Origin: a virus
IMG/VR virus record: IMGVR_UViG_3300005533_000009
Location: 17,269 to 81,268 of that record
Length of the DNA stretch: 64,000 nt
Strand: one strand, 5' to 3'
The position numbers and the translations under genes were made by a program. Each line of letters opens with the position of its first letter. Positions within the stretch are counted from its first letter, which is position 1. Positions 5,790 to 26,545 of this stretch are shown one piece after another. The notes below the pieces were generated by a model that was not told where the DNA came from, did not search any database, and saw nothing but the letters and a program-made list of their open reading frames with translations.

Positions 5790-6311
5790 ATGGATAAAAG
5801 AATAAAAGCAAAGAGTTTAGTAGGAAAAATATTTGGTAAACTAACGGTTGTATCTAGAGCACCAAATACTCCTAAAAGTCCACAGTGGAATTGTGTATGT
5901 ACCTGTGGAAATAAAGTAGTTGTACCAACACAAAGATTGATAAAAGGTACGTCTAAGAGTTGTGGATGTTTGAGAGAAGTAGATAATGCAGCTTTTACAT
6001 TACTCTTTCGTACTTATAAGTTAAATGCAAGAAAGAAAGACTTAGAATTTAAATTAACAGAAGAGCAATTTAGAAATATTACAAGCTCTAATTGTTATTA
6101 TACAGGAAGAAAGCCCACAAAAACTCTAACAACAGTTAGTGGAGATATTTACAAATATAATGGTATAGATCGTCTAGATAACACACAGGGATATGTTTTA
6201 CATAATTGTGTCCCATGTTGTACAGAGATTAACTATGCCAAACGCACTCTTCCTTTCAAGCAATTTATTGCTTTATGTGCAGAAGTTACAAAACAGCACA
6301 AGCAATTATAA
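5790..6311 (+). CDS. HNH homing endonuclease with N-terminal Cys-rich binding domain
   Basis: 173 residues. The N-terminal 65 carry 'GKIFGKLTVVSRA', CVCTCGNKVVVPT and KSCGC, a zinc-binding module that commonly precedes phage HNH nucleases. The C-terminal region has the HNH-type core GIDRLDNTQGYVLHNCVPCC with the N-x2-K-style close INYAK. Its role would be site-specific DNA cleavage for its own spread. It sits between portal and scaffold with its own leader and ends 22 nt before the scaffold start. Confidence 0.85.
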   Translation: MDKRIKAKSLVGKIFGKLTVVSRAPNTPKSPQWNCVCTCGNKVVVPTQRLIKGTSKSCGCLREVDNAAFTLLFRTYKLNARKKDLEFKLTEEQFRNITSSNCYYTGRKPTKTLTTVSGDIYKYNGIDRLDNTQGYVLHNCVPCCTEINYAKRTLPFKQFIALCAEVTKQHKQL

Positions 6312-7876: not shown

Positions 7877-8383
7877 ATGCCTTACAAAGACTCAAATAAA
7901 AATAGAGAATGTAGATTAGCTTGGCAGAAAAGAAATAGGACAAAGGTAAACGCTTATAAAAGAAAGCGTAGAGCCGAAAATTCTGAAGTTAGAGCCAAGG
8001 AATCAAGTTATACAATAGAATACCAACGTAAAAAGTATAAAGAGAATTCAGAGTTTAGACTTAAAGAGTCTTTTAGACACCATAAAAAGCGTCAAGATGA
8101 AAAGGTAGAAGCTCTAGTTCAATATGGTAAAAATAAAAGCTTGCAGTGTTGCTGGGAAAACTGCAATGTAGACGATCCAGACATGCTGTCATTGGATCAC
8201 GTCAATAATGATGGAGCAATAGATAGAGAAATCAGAGGTACTGGAATTAATCTTTACAGAACACTAAAGAAAGAAGGTTATCCAGAAGGATTTCAAACTT
8301 TATGCTTCAATCACCAGATGAAGAAAGAAATGACGCGACTCAGAAACAAATACAAAGATAGCATTAAGGAGAGAATTTTATGA
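7877..8383 (+). CDS. HNH homing endonuclease
   Basis: 168 residues. A long Lys/Arg-rich helical N-terminus (AYKRKRRAENSEVRAKE) is the likely DNA-binding arm. The C-terminal core reads CCWENCNVDDPDMLSLDHVNNDG, GINLYRTLKKEGYPEGFQTLCFNHQMKK. The D-H-V-N and N-H pairs mark the HNH site, with Cys-x4-Cys as zinc ligands. It is a close relative of the gene at 37869. The stop overlaps the next ATG (ATGA), so expression of the next gene is probably coupled to it. Confidence 0.88.
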   Translation: MPYKDSNKNRECRLAWQKRNRTKVNAYKRKRRAENSEVRAKESSYTIEYQRKKYKENSEFRLKESFRHHKKRQDEKVEALVQYGKNKSLQCCWENCNVDDPDMLSLDHVNNDGAIDREIRGTGINLYRTLKKEGYPEGFQTLCFNHQMKKEMTRLRNKYKDSIKERIL

Positions 8384-9576: not shown

Positions 9577-9864
9577 AAAGTTTTATGGAGCTACTAAGTG
9601 TGGCTCCTTATGCTGTAAAATCTGGTTCAATAGTAGAACGCCCTACGGGGAGAATGAAGGGTGCAAGTCCTTTCAATTTTACAGTATAAAGAACCATACT
9701 TTATAAGTTATAACCTATTCGAAGTACCTTGTGGTGGCGATAACACCTTAAATATGCTCAGGGAAAAGAGTAGAGGCAGTACATAGGTTCTCATTATGAC
9801 TCACATGGCATTGGTGAAGTGACAGAAACTTCATGGATGTACATTAATAATGGAAAAAAATTAA
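9577..9864 (+). other. Structured non-coding leader of the capsid gene
   Basis: 288 nt without a convincing reading frame. It contains an 8-bp hairpin GGAGCTAC/GTGGCTCC (9587-9607), a 72-nt cloverleaf-like fold (9613-9684), a long-range helix AACCTAT/ATAGGTT (9712-9718 with 9783-9789) enclosing GGTG/CACC, and hairpin TGAAGT/ACTTCA (9815-9833). The capsid ATG has only a weak SD (GGA). The segment is probably a regulatory or processed 5' leader; I do not recognise a known RNA family. Confidence 0.5.
9613..9684 (+). ncRNA. tRNA-like cloverleaf
   Basis: Closing helix CTGTAAAAT/ATTTTACAG (9 bp) encloses a D-arm-like GTTC-AATAGTA-GAAC, a stunted middle arm CCC-TAC-GGG, and a T-arm-like AAGGG-TGCAAGT-CCTTT. 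The last differs from a canonical T-loop by one base. There is no proper anticodon arm and no CCA, so it is not a normal tRNA. It may be a decayed tRNA or a tRNA mimic in the capsid leader. Confidence 0.35.
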
Positions 9865-10252
9865 ATGGCTGCATTACTAGAAGCGGCTGTGGAAGCTGTC
9901 GAACTTGATGCGTTTGCAAAAGAGATTCCCGACCTAGTTTTCCATGGCACTACTGCTTACACTCTTTTCAAGAATGAAGCAACTAAGATTCCTGTAAGCA
10001 ACCAGTCTAACGCAGGCGGCGTTCAGCGTCCATCATTCCGTGTTCCTTTCCGTGTACAAAGCGGTGCGGCAATTTCGCAGGGAACTGGTAACGCTGATTC
10101 AATGCTGCGTGGTTCTGGTTCACAGTGGGCATCATTTGCGCTTGCCCCTGTATATTTGTTCAACGTGTGTGAAATCTCATGGTTGGCACAGGCATCAACT
10201 GACAGCAAGCAAAAGGGCTTGTTCGCTGTTAATACTTTAGCAGCGGCTGCGT
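9865..10252 (+). CDS. Major capsid protein, exon 1
   Basis: First exon of a split capsid gene. The 129 codons start MAALLEAAVEAVELDAF and include an IPDLVFHGTTAYTLFK helix-strand. The apparent stop TAG directly after the exon belongs to intron 1. The 5' splice site is placed after T10252 because CTGCGT (10247-10252) pairs with GCGTAG in the intron (10264-10269) to form P1 with the required U-G pair. Joined to 11026-11914 and 12115-12199 it gives a 453-residue protein. Position after portal and scaffold and the C-terminal exon pattern support the capsid call. Confidence 0.7.
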
Positions 10253-11025
10253 AGTAATACATGGCGTAGAAATAATCTTGCTATATCGGGGAAAACCTGT
10301 TATCCTAAAGATGGAAATAGACAATCCCGAGGGAAGATAGAATGACAAAGCAAAGTAAGTTTTCATACCTTGCAGGTTTCATGGATGGCGAAGGAACATT
10401 CGCTATCGTCAAAACCTTCTCGGTTCAAAGAAAACCGGATGGAAGTAAGAAGCGTTACGTGGTATATAAACTGAATATCTCAGTAAGTAATACCAACAAA
10501 GAAGTCATGGAATGGATAGCCTTGAATTTTGGAGGCAAGCCACTGCCGGGAAGCAATGAAGGTCGAAAGCCTCATTATAAAACTCGGTATGCATGGCACG
10601 TAACACACAGAGACAAACAAAAGAGTTTTATTCTTGGTTTGTTACCTTACCTAGTTGCGAAAAAGGAACAAGCAAAAATAGCACTACAATTCATTGAGAC
10701 TTATTCGAATGAGATTGGGGTGCCGCTTGATTCTGCGGTGGTAGAGAAAAGAGACCAGTTGAGAAAGCAAATGCAAAAACTCAACGGTACACTACCTTCC
10801 GATTCTAAACCCGTAGAGACTACACGCAGGACTCCAAAGTGTACAAAATGTAATCATCTAGTTTCAGAGCATACTTCCACAGGATGTAATGTAAAAGTAT
10901 GTGATGCTGCTGGAGATTTAGATTTTTGTCCTTGTGGATGATGATATAGTCCGAACTGCATAGTGATATGCAGAGTGTGGCAGAAATGTCATACCTAGCT
11001 TTTAGCTAGTAACATATTTGTAAAG
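10253..11025 (+). ncRNA. Group I intron 1 in the capsid gene
   Basis: A core resembling phage T4 td-type introns is visible: CGGGGAAAACCTG (about 10288-10300), then TAGACAATCCCGAGG near 10318, and the 3' P7 strand ATATAGTCC (10943-10951). Hairpins CTGCATA/TATGCAG and CTAGCT/AGCTAG follow as P9-type helices. The P1 helix with exon 1 is six pairs. The 3' site is placed after G11025 because this keeps the frame and gives AAAASQEMKNS across the junction. The intron carries a LAGLIDADG gene. Exact 3' end is inferred. Confidence 0.8.
10342..10941 (+). CDS. LAGLIDADG homing endonuclease encoded in intron 1
   Basis: 199 residues with the single LAGLIDADG motif as YLAGFMDGEGTF at residues 9-20, a beta-rich saddle region, and a helical GLLPYLVAKKEQAKIAL segment typical of these nucleases. 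The last 40 residues add a Cys cluster (CTKCNHL...GCNVKVC...CPCG) that may aid DNA contact. One motif suggests a homodimer. SD GAGGGAAG lies inside the intron core, so ribosome binding may compete with intron folding, as known for T4 intron ORFs. The gene's end abuts the 3' P7 strand. Confidence 0.88.
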   Translation: MTKQSKFSYLAGFMDGEGTFAIVKTFSVQRKPDGSKKRYVVYKLNISVSNTNKEVMEWIALNFGGKPLPGSNEGRKPHYKTRYAWHVTHRDKQKSFILGLLPYLVAKKEQAKIALQFIETYSNEIGVPLDSAVVEKRDQLRKQMQKLNGTLPSDSKPVETTRRTPKCTKCNHLVSEHTSTGCNVKVCDAAGDLDFCPCG

Positions 11026-11914
11026 CACAAGAAATGAAGAATTCGCTAGACGCTGCTATGCAGGGTATTGAAGGTCTGATTAACTCAGACGGTTCTGGTG
11101 CAATTGACCAGATTCCTTCAACCGCAACTATCACTCTAAGTGGTGGTTCACCCGCAGCACAGACTGCTAGCATTGTTGGTATGAACGTGGCAGTTGCATT
11201 TTCAGATCAGCAAGTAGTTAAGTTCTACAGCACTGGTGGCGTACAGCGTACTGGTGGTGGTATCACTTCCGCAACGATTTCCTACGTTGACGGACCTAGC
11301 AACACTCTATATTTCAGCACTGCTCTGCCTTCAGACGTAGTGGTAACTGACTATGTAGTTGTTCAGGGTGCAACTTATGGAGCAGGTAACTCAATCCTTG
11401 GTATCAAGGCATGGGACGTTAACTCAAACACTGGTACTATTGCAGGTTTGAACCGTAACGCTTATCCCGGTCGTCTAAGCACTCCAACTATTAACCTAGC
11501 TGGTGCTGCATTGACTCCAAACATTGCCCAGAGAGCAGAAGTGCTCCTAGGTCGTGCATTGGGTCCAGACGCTGATAGCATCGAAAGTGGTATCTGGTAC
11601 GGTCCTCCTGAGCAGGCAATGGCTCAGAGCAATTTGTACTACAACGTACAAATCATCAATGCTCAAGAAGTAAAGGGCGACAAGACACTCGATATGTCTA
11701 AGAAGCACTTTGCTAATGAGTTTGGTGGCCGTAAGTATCACAAGAGTTGGACATTCTCACCAAACCGTATGGATTTGCTGGTAATGGACAACTGGTACAT
11801 GGGCGAACTTTCACCTCTTGAGCTTTATGACTTCGGGGGCGGGAATGTAGTTGCTCCAGTGCCTGATATCGGTAACAGTACCTCAAGCGGGTCATACCTT
11901 ACCTCACACATGTT
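11026..11914 (+). CDS. Major capsid protein, exon 2
   Basis: Central exon of the capsid gene. It includes an inserted beta-rich segment (about 11100-11420), a GIWYGPPEQAMAQ helix, a KSWTFSPNRMDLLVMDNWYMGELSP segment and a GSYLTSHM close, in the usual order of HK97-fold coat proteins. The frame runs on to a TAA at 11937-11939 only because it enters intron 2. The 5' splice site after T11914 is supported by P1: ACATGTT (exon) with GACATGT in the intron, U-G at the site. Confidence 0.7.
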
Positions 11915-12114
11915 GAACGTTACGTTAGGACATGTATAAATTTCTTCTGATTGACTCGAACCCTGAAATGGCAACGAGGCGGAACCCAATAGGGACCGTG
12001 AGAGACTAAGCGAAGAAACGTCTAAATGACGATGCAATAGTCCGATCACATGGGAATAAAACCATGTGAGTGCAACAGAAATGATTGCACCTCATACACT
12101 GAGTAACAACAATG
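11915..12114 (+). ncRNA. Group I intron 2 in the capsid gene (ORF-less, about 200 nt)
   Basis: Visible helices: P1 with exon 2; P3 TTTCTTC (about 11940) with GAAGAAA; P7 GACTA with TAGTC; P8 CGTC/GACG between them; P9-type hairpins CACATGG/CCATGTG and TGCAA/TTGCA. The 3' site is placed after G12114, the only in-frame choice with a preceding G that continues the protein sensibly. No open frame inside. Intron 1 and intron 2 differ in core sequence, so they are separate insertions rather than a duplication. Confidence 0.75.
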
Positions 12115-12199
12115 CGCGTATAATTGCTGCTTCAATTTGGCAAACGCTGCTCCAAGAGCAGGTCTGTATATCCAGAATGCAGCAGTTCCGACCATCTGA
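12115..12199 (+). CDS. Major capsid protein, exon 3 (C-terminus)
   Basis: 28 codons ending in TGA at 12197-12199. They read AYNCCFNLANAAPRAGLYIQ and a short tail ending NAAVPTI. The 'N..aNPRAG..i.N' style C-terminus is typical of phage coat proteins and would not exist as a gene by itself, which is strong evidence for splicing across intron 2. The three exons sum to 1362 nt, a multiple of three. Confidence 0.65.
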
Positions 12200-12309: not shown

Positions 12310-12828
12310 TTGGTACAAAAAAGAAGAAGTACAAAACCTTATGAAGGCTACCCTTGGCATGAACAACATAAGGAAGAATTAAAAGAAAAAGCTCGTAAAT
12401 ATAGAGCGGAAAACCCAGAATACTTAAAGCGCAATGCTGAAAAAGCAAGACGTGATCGTTTAGAAAACCCAGAATTTTATCGTGCCAGAGAGTTTGCACG
12501 AGAAATGAAAAAATATGGTGTAACTGTAGAATGGTACAGAGATAAACTTATTGCTCAAAATGGACTTTGTGCTATTTGTCAGCATTTAAGTCATCATCAT
12601 GGTACTATTCAAAGATTACAGGTAGATCATAATCATCAGTGTTGTGATGTTAAAACCAAAAGTTGTGGAGAATGCGTGCGCGGTCTTTTATGCGCCGATT
12701 GTAATATTAATCTTAGCTATTTGGAAAAAATTTTGAAAGACATATACGGTCTGTATGAAGCCCGATGGGACTCATGGACCTCTAAGGCATTAAAATATTT
12801 GACTCAGTACGAACTTACTGCCAACTAA
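12310..12828 (+). CDS. Endonuclease VII-like homing endonuclease
   Basis: TTG start at 12310 with SD AGGAGAG 4-9 nt upstream. A Lys/Glu/Arg-rich helical N-terminus has repeated 'YRAENPEY'-like units. The C-terminal nuclease has CAICQHLSHHHG, VDHNHQC with the catalytic His, and CGECVRGLLCADCNINL, then a helical end. Same family as 2592, 30434, 31453 and 53940. It lies directly downstream of the twice-interrupted capsid gene. Confidence 0.86.
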   Translation: MVQKRRSTKPYEGYPWHEQHKEELKEKARKYRAENPEYLKRNAEKARRDRLENPEFYRAREFAREMKKYGVTVEWYRDKLIAQNGLCAICQHLSHHHGTIQRLQVDHNHQCCDVKTKSCGECVRGLLCADCNINLSYLEKILKDIYGLYEARWDSWTSKALKYLTQYELTAN

Positions 12829-22343: not shown

Positions 22344-23002
22344 TGCGAGTGTTATCTGGTGTACTTATATTTGCAATACCTGATCTTACTAGAATTTGTT
22401 TAAGATCATTAATAAGTACACCAACGGATGTACTTGTGGTAGATAATTGCGCTCCTCAGGATGTAAAAGAGGAAGCTTACAGATACGGAGATAGAATCAA
22501 AGTCATAACTATGGCAGAGAATACGTACTGTAACGGTGGCTGGAATGAAATCATGCAGTACGGATTAGAGCATGACTATGATCTTATAGGTCTAGGCTCT
22601 TCAGATGTTGAACTTCATCCCGGTTGGTACAATCTGGTAATCAACAGGGCTACAGAGCATCCAGACGAAATTATTCTTCCGCGAGTAGGAGAACCTGTAA
22701 GTAACGCCGATATAAACAACGTTACTATAGCCTCTTCTACTCCGGGGTTTTTCACTTTCCTACCAAAACAGGCAGTAGCACAGGTTTACCCTATACCAAG
22801 AGGCTTAAGACATTGGTTTGGGGATGAATACATGTTTACCATACTAAGACAGATTGGATGGAAGACAGTTATTCTCAATGATTTTACAGCCTATCACCAA
22901 TGGTCTTCTAATACAGCCCAGAACCCAGAGGCTTATAGAGTGATAGAGCAGGATAAACTAGAATGGCAACGACTCAGAAATCAGCACTTATTACAAAGAT
23001 AG
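22343..23002 (+). CDS. GT2-like glycosyltransferase
   Basis: 219 residues, one-base overlap with the previous gene. It has a LSGVLIFAIPDLTRICLRSL start, TDVLVVDNCAP (nucleotide-binding Asp), MAENTYCNGGWNEIMQYGL, DLIGLGSSDVEL at the metal site and GLRHWFGDEYMF in the catalytic-base region. Matches the WcaA/RfbF-type GT2 pattern with Ser-Asp instead of two Asp. A LAGLIDADG gene overlaps its last 40 nt. Confidence 0.68.
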   Translation: MRVLSGVLIFAIPDLTRICLRSLISTPTDVLVVDNCAPQDVKEEAYRYGDRIKVITMAENTYCNGGWNEIMQYGLEHDYDLIGLGSSDVELHPGWYNLVINRATEHPDEIILPRVGEPVSNADINNVTIASSTPGFFTFLPKQAVAQVYPIPRGLRHWFGDEYMFTILRQIGWKTVILNDFTAYHQWSSNTAQNPEAYRVIEQDKLEWQRLRNQHLLQR

Positions 23003-23514
23003 ATAAAAAACCGGAAATACGTCAATTTACCACAGCAGAAGCAGCTTGGTTAGCAGCGGTTATTGATGGAGAAGGAAGCTTTGGATTGTATAACTACGGG
23101 AAAGAAGGACGTAGAGTGATGATCCAAATGGGGAATACTAATAAAAGTTTTGTAGAAGAAATGCGAAGAGTTATAGGATGTGGTTCTTCTATACGTAGGG
23201 TATCTTTTGGTAAAAGTCATATTGGAAGAAAACCTATGTATCATTATGTGTTGAAAGGCTCAGCAAGATGTTATTGGGTTTTATTTCAAATTGTTAGTTT
23301 TTTGATAATAAAAAAAGAAAAAGCCAAATCTATATTGAACGAGTTAGAAACAAAGCCATTTGGCCGATGGGCGAATGCAACGCCAGAAGCAAGGAAAAAA
23401 CAATCTGACAGACTTAAATTGCAGTGGAAAAATCCAGCTATTAGAGCAAGACGTATGGCTGGCATAAAAAAGTCCATTGCCAGAAAAAAGAAGGCTAAAA
23501 ATGGCAGAGCGTAA
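22963..23514 (+). CDS. LAGLIDADG homing endonuclease (free-standing)
   Basis: 183 residues. The motif reads [15 protein letters not shown] at about residues 29-43, followed by the beta saddle and a helical [20 protein letters not shown]. The basic C-terminus ([26 protein letters not shown]) resembles NUMOD-type tails. It overlaps the upstream transferase by 40 nt and the downstream gmd start by 14 nt. No leader. One motif suggests homodimer action. Confidence 0.87.
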
Positions 23515-25409: not shown

Positions 25410-26010
25410 AATATTTGAAAAATCAGGACTAAATGATCCTTTGCGAGAAACTTGGTTACCTGATGCAGTTAAACTGGGCATGGATTATAAGTTCTTTCAT
25501 GGAGCAGGCTCTACAGAAAAAGAAGATGTAGTTGTTCTGCCAGTAGATGATTCTTTAGGTGGATTGACCGAGAAGGCCAAAGCAAAGGCGAAATGGATGG
25601 TGGATAATGGCTATGATTATGCTTTTTCATGTTTCCCCGATACTTACGCTTGTGCTATTCGCCTCTATAATAGCGATTACGCTAAGTATGACTACTACGG
25701 TCGCATACATCAGCACGTTGGCGGTCCTCCGTATTGCCAAGGCGGTCCCGGTTATTTTCTCAGTCGTAAAGCGTGCGAAAGAATTTATCAAAATCCGACT
25801 AGCTACTTAAATGATGACTGTTGGATTGGTGACGTTTTAAATGTACCAGATATAAAAAGAGGACACTCAGACGACTTCACATATGTCGGTCCCGGCCCTC
25901 TAGTTGGGAACACTTCTATTACAAATCATCTTTCTACTCAGCCGGGAGGATTTACTCCCGAGGGGATGAGGGCAGAGCACCAAAGATGGCTAGGATCGTA
26001 TGATTATTGA
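25378..26010 (+). CDS. GT31-like putative glycosyltransferase (altered acidic motif)
   Basis: 210 residues; overlaps fcl by 32 nt. Opening strand [19 protein letters not shown] and LRETWLPDAV match the GT31-like genes nearby, with DYKFFHGAGS as the second strand. Where relatives have CDDD this protein has AFSCFPDTYA, so the metal site is altered. The Gly-rich acceptor loop GGPPYCQGGPGYFLSRKAC and LNDDCWIGDVLN are kept. It could be a retaining or inactive variant. Closest in this window to the gene at 8577. Confidence 0.55.
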   Translation: MKILISISSCEIFEKSGLNDPLRETWLPDAVKLGMDYKFFHGAGSTEKEDVVVLPVDDSLGGLTEKAKAKAKWMVDNGYDYAFSCFPDTYACAIRLYNSDYAKYDYYGRIHQHVGGPPYCQGGPGYFLSRKACERIYQNPTSYLNDDCWIGDVLNVPDIKRGHSDDFTYVGPGPLVGNTSITNHLSTQPGGFTPEGMRAEHQRWLGSYDY

Positions 26011-26545
26011 TGCTTTTTACACATATTTGTGGCTGAGAGAAGATGGTACTCCTTACTACGTAGGAAAAGGTAAGGGAAATAGGGCATACTGGCGCAGACC
26101 TTCAGAAAAACTACAGCCTCCCACCAAAGACCGTATCATTGTGCAGGAATGGCCTTCCGAAGAAGACGCATTTGCTGCCGAAAAGTTTTTGATTGAGTAC
26201 TATGGAAGAAAAGACCAGAAACTAGGGTTATTGGTAAATTTCACTGACGGTGGAGACGGAGCTTCCGGTGCAGTTCGCACAGAAGAATTTAAAAAGAAAT
26301 TAAGAGAAGCCAACGTAGGAAAACAGATACCTGAAGAAGCAAAAGAGAAAATGCGTCAGGCCAAGATTGGTATTAAACACACCGAAACTTGGAAAGAAAA
26401 CCACCGTAAGATGATGATGGGTAGAAAACACTCTTCAGAGACTAGAAAAAAGATGTCCCAATGGCAAATTGGCAAAAAGCTTAGCGAAGAAACTAAGCAG
26501 AAAATAAGAGAGGCTGCATTACGCAGATTTAATAATGGTAATTGA
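26000..26545 (+). CDS. GIY-YIG homing endonuclease with NUMOD3 repeats
   Basis: 181 residues. Core FYTYLWLREDGTPYYVGKG, then RAYWRRPSEKL and FAAEKFLIEYYGRKD. The C-terminal 90 residues contain repeated 'HTETWKENHRKMMMGRKHSSETRKKM'-like NUMOD3 units for DNA binding. It overlaps both neighbours by 11 nt. Its first codons (MIIDAF) nearly match those of the downstream gene at 26535 (MVIDAF), which suggests that the insertion duplicated that start. Confidence 0.88.
   Translation: MIIDAFYTYLWLREDGTPYYVGKGKGNRAYWRRPSEKLQPPTKDRIIVQEWPSEEDAFAAEKFLIEYYGRKDQKLGLLVNFTDGGDGASGAVRTEEFKKKLREANVGKQIPEEAKEKMRQAKIGIKHTETWKENHRKMMMGRKHSSETRKKMSQWQIGKKLSEETKQKIREAALRRFNNGN

Follow-up and report, generated by a model that had tools for sequence, protein, structure and literature searches.

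The interval 9865-12199 of the window (the whole stretch of viral DNA analysed, 64,000 nucleotides) raises two connected questions: whether it holds a single major capsid gene divided by group I introns, and where those introns begin and end. On the evidence below it is very probably one HK97-fold major capsid gene, its coding sequence interrupted by two group I introns at 10230-11020 and 11915-12114.

The capsid gene and its product

The original prediction of one gene in three coding segments, with two intervening sequences and in-frame joining, is borne out by the joined translation. Exon 1 (9865-10229, comprising codons 1-121 and two bases of codon 122) and exon 2 (11021-11914) were delimited by alignment with intron-free relatives and by spliced alignment, and exon 3 (12115-12199), which includes the stop codon (..FAYNCCFNLANAAPRAGLYIQNAAVPTI*), by alignment with the intron-free relatives; all three lie on the + strand. 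The intron-free relatives are L002-L006 and L034 from IMG/VR, and the counterpart of exon 3 in them reads FAYNTCFNLAN(S/A)APRAGLY(I/V)QNAAVPT(I/V); the APRAG-type C-terminus expected of exon 3 is present in it. The corrected exons encode a protein of 447 residues rather than the 453 codons first proposed. This joined protein aligns end to end, through both joins, with the intron-free relatives (86-91% identity for the near ones), the predicted spliced joins being GTTCGCTGT/TAAAGCAC and CACATGTT/CGCGTATA. On the unspliced mRNA, translation ends at codon 130 (TAG, 10252-10254).

The capsid protein sequence has no match in Pfam, PHROGs, PDB or deposited phages, and it is therefore identified by its fold, the order of the genes and its conservation. 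An AF2 model of the protein of the intron-free relative L034, built from a 44-row alignment of intron-free relatives (pLDDT 76.4, pTM 0.76), matches the HK97 fold, which is marked by an N-arm, E-loop, spine helix and P and A domains. Only capsid and HK97-fold entries are found among the 50 best matches of this model in the PDB; it matches 7f38_A with an E value of 1.3e-10 and HK97 itself (1ohg) with an E value of 5e-7, and a comparison with BFVD also returned major capsid proteins. An earlier AF2 model from 19 sequences reached a pLDDT of 45.6, and its fold matches were not used. The gene upstream of the capsid gene encodes 881 residues and is weakly portal-like. The structure model lends support to the major capsid identity originally assigned, and the designation of the window gene as encoding an HK97-fold major capsid protein holds as a structural prediction.

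Exon borders and the two predicted ribozymes

Intron 1 occupies 10230-11020 on the + strand (791 nt), at a site common to 17 related loci. At this point the intron-free relatives read ..GLFAVKAQEMKN.., within the longer stretch ..GLFAVKAQEMKNSLD.., and splicing of 10229 to 11021 reproduces both exactly. An aligner run without a pairing term places the window junctions at these same positions and assigns the equivalent site, nt 365 of the coding sequence, to 18 loci, a set that includes two near-identical contigs. The 5' exon strand of P1, TCGCTGT (10223-10229), pairs with the internal guide sequence GCAGCGG (10240-10246), with a U.G pair at the splice site, and directly upstream of the guide CTTTA (10235-10239) forms P10 with the start of the 3' exon, TAAAG (11021-11025). 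This combination of a 7 bp P1 and a 5 bp P10 is equalled by 3 of 2000 shuffles, and it agrees independently with the borders given by a spliced aligner that ignores RNA pairing. In both introns the exon ends in T and the intron in G (10229 and 11020; 11914 and 12114); since the aligner demanded these letters at the borders they serve as a consistency check, the boundaries being fixed by the intron-free relatives.

From its sequence, intron 1 is classed as a LAGLIDADG-bearing intron with a family C core, and thus differs from intron 2, which belongs to family A. Its P3 pairs TCTTGC (10276-10281) with GCAGGA (10826-10831), and the P4-P5 region spans 10287-10330, with CGGGG (10287-10291) facing CCCGA (10326-10330). 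Among homologues at the same site P3 covaries and P4 changes from CGGGG/CCCGA to CGGTG/ACCGA, both judged by eye. P7 (10816-10952) joins GAGACTA (10816-10822) to TAGTCC (10947-10952), enclosing P3' and P8, and is followed by a P9 hairpin, CTGCATAGTGATATGCAG (10956-10973), identified from the Rfam alignment; all these elements lie on the + strand. A TAGTCC strand in P7 and P9-type hairpins had been predicted for both introns, and both features are found in each. The Rfam group I family (RF00028, Intron_gpI) matches intron 1 over 10718-10973 with 37.3 bits (E 3.9e-7) against a gathering score of 50, and related introns of the same gene score 58-78 bits, above that cut-off, the ORF-less intron at nt 304 of L043 reaching 63 bits. 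The covariance model of family A gives a weak match (31.5 bits) to the 3' half of intron 1. The description of the two introns as unrelated is therefore apt in so far as they fall into different families, A and C, but is tempered by this weak match.

Within intron 1 an ORF of 199 codons (10342-10941, + strand) encodes a predicted LAGLIDADG homing endonuclease, the domain scoring above its cut-off (PF00961, 28.6 bits against 23.1) and the ORF also matching phrog_5046 (E 5e-22). The 3' part of the ORF overlaps the ribozyme core (P7 and P3'), and the stretch lying over P7/P3' retains the residues VETT(R)xTP in homologues, as would be expected if the ribozyme constrains the overlapping reading frame.

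Intron 2 (11915-12114, + strand) is 200 nt long and has no ORF. Its borders and its P1, in which ACATGTT (11908-11914) pairs with the guide GACATGT (11929-11935) through a terminal U.G, stand as originally drawn, in agreement with spliced alignment. P1 is 7 bp long and P10, weaker than most, is 5 bp long and offset three bases from P1; the two together are equalled by 1 of 2000 shuffles. On the same strand, P3 pairs TTTCTTC (11941-11947) with GAAGAAA (12012-12018) and encloses P4, P5, P6 and the 5' strand of P7. The P7 pseudoknot joins 12002-12008 to 12038-12043 and covaries in 29 sequences, P8 forms a hairpin at 12019-12031, and the consensus structure places P9, P9.1 and P9.2 at 12046-12069, 12070-12090 and 12091-12103.

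The consensus for family A (29 members; P3-P8, P9, P9.1 and P9.2) has 96% of its cells paired, and slid controls are 32-38% paired. Compensatory changes, in which both sides have altered, are present in 34 of the 48 pairs, a result that none of 500 shuffles matched, and are distributed over P3, P4, P5, P6, P7, P8 and P9. Five of the seven pairs of P3 are altered on both sides among relatives. P7 is 100% paired in the 29 sequences, with three pairs showing compensatory changes, and part of it covaries together with a bulged base (GAGACTA/TAGTCC, ACGACTA/TAGTCT, GATCA/TGATC). The covariance model R1 matches intron 2 with 178 bits (E 6e-39 in 540 kb), a rough E value from a model whose training set includes the window copy and whose training members match by construction. 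At the Rfam gathering threshold there is no match in the window, and intron 2 is not listed even where intron 1 scores 37.3 bits. The covarying cores, together with P1/P10 pairings beyond those of shuffles, support the earlier view that both intervening sequences are group I introns.

In the mechanism that we propose, the guide of each intron would pair with the end of the 5' exon (P1, with its U.G) and with the start of the 3' exon (P10), and the P3-P9 core would then excise the intron with guanosine and ligate the exons to give the 447-residue capsid protein. Standard group I splicing of this kind in the cell would restore the capsid reading frame. Intron 1 is most likely mobile, its LAGLIDADG endonuclease being expected to spread it by homing; intron 2 is a small family A intron lacking an endonuclease.

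Two other readings of the locus carry far less weight. Retention of the junctions first proposed, with intron 1 at 10253-11025 and a protein of 453 residues, is almost certainly incorrect: it is in frame, its exon ends in T, its intron ends in G and a 6 bp P1 can be drawn for it, but it lacks a P10, 89 of 2000 shuffles equal it, and the homologous site in 17 other loci is 10229/10230, so that the first junctions were misplaced by 23 nt at the 5' end and 5 nt at the 3' end. The helix invoked as its P1, CTGCGT/GCGTAG, is a decoy inside the intron, the true P1 being TCGCTGT/GCAGCGG. Alignment with intron-less coat proteins, which had been suggested as a check, runs through the corrected joins throughout; the first join as proposed, however, yields ..GLFAVNTLAAAASQEMKN.. 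(in the longer stretch ..GLFAVNTLAAAASQEMKNSLD..), whose additional residues occur in no intron-free relative. It is also very improbable that the capsid gene is simply broken, with the insertions as non-splicing remnants and the fragments as a pseudogene or as separate proteins. Frame damage and a fused intron in one relative, L042, would fit such decay, but the exons conserve the protein, as illustrated by the relatives that carry mini-introns (below), whose N-terminal exons differ synonymously at 192 codons and nonsynonymously at 8. Moreover, the guides fit both exons, the ribozyme helices covary and a tailed phage requires a capsid protein. Interruption of an intact capsid gene by two group I introns thus remains the reading that we adopt.

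Intron sites and putative mini-introns in related capsid genes

Spliced alignments across about 60 related contigs reveal about 23 insertion sites in the capsid gene, at nt 21, 33, 48, 66, 104, 117, 304, 365, 444, 985, 992, 1062, 1137, 1188, 1254, 1259, 1264, 1273, 1277, 1287, 1299, 1312 and 1331, eight of which are packed into 60 nt at the 3' end (1254-1312). These counts hinge on a T before and a G at the end of each intron, and the contigs are metagenomic; for family B introns, whose P1 helices are short, the junctions were taken from the protein alignment. Left out of the counts were inserts of 25 and 29 nt in L042 (treated as frame errors), a 353-nt insertion at nt 59 of L046, whose contig begins inside an intron, and a 34-nt call at nt 304 of L078, whose contig stops inside an intron. 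The largest number of interruptions in one gene is seven (L037). Endonuclease ORFs occur at nt 304, 365 and 444 (LAGLIDADG), nt 66 (GIY-YIG) and nt 1137 (HNH/Endonuclease VII-like), types assigned by motif, with HMM support for the LAGLIDADG of the window. The introns at nt 365, 304 and 1137 are ORF-less and about 200 nt long in some relatives and ORF-bearing and 680-980 nt long in others, a mixture expected from gain or loss of endonuclease genes or from intron replacement. Judged from these alignments, the capsid gene is a long-term intron hotspot in this clade, where two introns are a moderate number.

Several individual loci deserve mention. In L042 (7140-7430) a fused intron takes its 5' part from an intron of nt 1254 and its 3' part from one of nt 1299; the exon between them is absent, as if two family A introns of one gene had recombined. 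L036 (6568-6957) has two family A introns, at nt 1259 and 1277, separated by an exon of about 18 nt, and its contig stops inside the second. The family A intron at nt 1264 of L039 (6961-7609) measures 649 nt with no ORF longer than 31 aa, and may contain a decayed endonuclease gene. In L290 (1790-2427), whose capsid gene is only distantly related, nt 304 again holds an intron, its P1 being 7 bp long, so that this site is in use across the wider family.

Family A introns (about 200 nt) are found at a dozen sites, only in the capsid gene. Over the whole contigs of the window and 20 relatives, all strong R1 matches (>100 bits) lie in that gene; introns of family B type are also present outside it. 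For 20 of the 29 family A introns the nearest relative occupies another site, and the likeness across sites is, for example, 95% between L016 at nt 1254 and L007 at nt 1264. The guides differ between sites, each fitting its own, so that, as far as sequence can tell, the guide fits the site and the core is common to several sites. Such cross-site likeness would follow equally from introns moving to ectopic sites and from recombination that exchanges cores.

The capsid genes of nine relatives, the window not among them, also contain frame-breaking inserts of 34-49 nt, which we call mini-introns. They lie at nt 48 (L019:225-264, L020:473-513, L032:89-128 and L037:1228-1268), nt 48/49 (L024:4691-4729), nt 66 (L041:3800-3848, L043:4728-4766 and L113:4967-5000) and nt 21 (L050:4955-5000), and correspond to roughly six independent sequences, since the nt 48 group is one lineage. 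The same aligner called none in the intron-free relatives. All contain a P1 (5-9 bp, with a U.G pair), a P10 (5-8 bp) within one base of it, a short linker and a terminal G, and for each of the nine no shuffle out of 5000 equals its P1 and P10 score. They offer no room for a P3-P8 core of their own, and R1 matches are confined to the adjoining full introns. In 9/9 cases the next interruption downstream is a full family A intron 18-83 nt away; conversely, wherever the upstream part is covered, the family A introns at nt 66, 104 or 117 are all accompanied by a mini-insert. The N-terminal exons keep the protein, as noted above, and the inserts must therefore be removed; since other relatives have full introns at these sites, core deletion is the simplest origin. 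On balance, we favour the view that mini-introns are guide-only and core-less, and that the core of the next downstream full family A intron removes them, one ribozyme thus serving two guides and two introns. By analogy, the neighbouring core most likely docks the P1/P10 of the mini-intron.

Both the likeness of cores and the mini-introns allow other explanations. Homologous recombination of cores, and not intron jumping, might have made introns at neighbouring sites alike, and this is quite possible, if a little short of probable. The cores of the introns at nt 1254 and 1277 of L033 are 94% identical within one gene, and the fused intron of L042 resembles the outcome of recombination between two such introns; core recombination does not, however, account for the initial arrival of family A at a dozen sites in a single gene and at none in other genes. 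For the mini-introns, ribosomal bypassing as in T4 gene 60, instead of RNA splicing, is unlikely. Their length (34-49 nt), an early stop codon and an internal hairpin are similar, but the take-off and landing codons are unmatched in all nine (for example GCT against AAG, or CCT against CTG or TAG), and bypassing leaves the perfect P1 with its U.G, the P10, the terminal G and the full introns at the same sites in other phages without explanation. Removal by a neighbouring core, which we favour, would provide an example from nature of a group I ribozyme that works on an intron other than itself.

Relation to known systems and the surroundings of the gene

Group I introns are known in phage capsid genes, as in LittleE and Tuc2009 (PMC3706429). 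For LittleE, a Cluster J mycobacteriophage, splicing of the capsid intron was established by RT-PCR and protein sequencing, and this group I-type intron of the major capsid gene, about 820 bp long, resembles those of the window in the exon-end U and the intron-end G and, like intron 1, has a LAGLIDADG-like gene inside; it is, however, a single intron with the endonuclease on the opposite strand, in an unrelated phage (PMC3706429). The MCP gene of the crAss-like Zeta group (OLRF01000054), also from an uncultivated phage, is described with group I-type introns in five fragments with four interruptions (PMC7886860). Those are gut phages with another MCP, whose insertions were recognised by endonuclease domains, and the portion of that account drawn on here presents no site map across relatives and no core-less introns (PMC7886860). 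With up to four introns known in one capsid gene, and two being moderate for the clade, the present pair is less uncommon than was first suggested. Two or three group I introns per gene are likewise described for Twort and Bastillevirinae (PMC11878797, citing Landthaler and Shub 1999), in that account in polymerase, terminase and other genes and at fewer sites, and dense introns are reported for Jug phages (PMC12363816). In nuclear rDNA, as in the clade of the window, many sites within one set of genes are occupied by related group I introns, for which spread by reverse splicing has been proposed (PMC1299323). Those are eukaryotic rRNA genes as that source treats them, whereas here a phage protein gene is involved and guides are retargeted over 5-23 nt. 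What is new is the extent: about 23 sites, several intron families, three kinds of endonuclease domain, up to seven interruptions and a family (A) confined to this gene yet present at a dozen of its sites, which make this capsid gene a dense natural record of intron spread, guide retargeting and loss of parts.

A search of the open-access literature for a natural core-less group I intron returned engineered systems only, which does not prove its absence. The reduced group III introns of Euglena are a comparable case, of which mini-introns would be the group I counterpart. If the proposal is true, it would bear directly on the route by which reduced introns become dependent on catalytic machinery that they share, and mini-introns would be the natural counterpart of laboratory spliceozymes. 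In trans-excision ribozymes and group I spliceozymes, as proposed for the mini-introns, a group I core excises a core-less intron via P1 and P10/P9-type pairings (PMC4094466). Spliceozymes are Tetrahymena-derived laboratory constructs acting in trans (PMC4094466), unlike mini-introns, which are natural, contain the guide themselves and presumably rely on the core of the intron that follows in their own transcript.

Further observations concern the surroundings of the capsid gene. The leader upstream (window 9577-9866, 290 nt) folds better than any of 200 shuffles, at a z of -3.9, and its predicted fold includes a cloverleaf-like stem near 9608-9688; it matched no Rfam family, and a tRNA search of it found none. 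A stretch of 24-25 nt near 9733-9756 is found again ahead of the capsid genes of L040 and L012-L014. Genes of endonuclease type lie around the capsid gene at 5790-6311, 7877-8383 and 12310-12828 of the window, the first and last matching HNH/Endonuclease VII families and the middle one looking alike with no match. By eye, ORFs at 22963-23514 and 26000-26545 resemble free-standing LAGLIDADG and GIY-YIG endonucleases, and these candidates appear to sit among a long run of sugar-nucleotide/glycosyltransferase-like genes.
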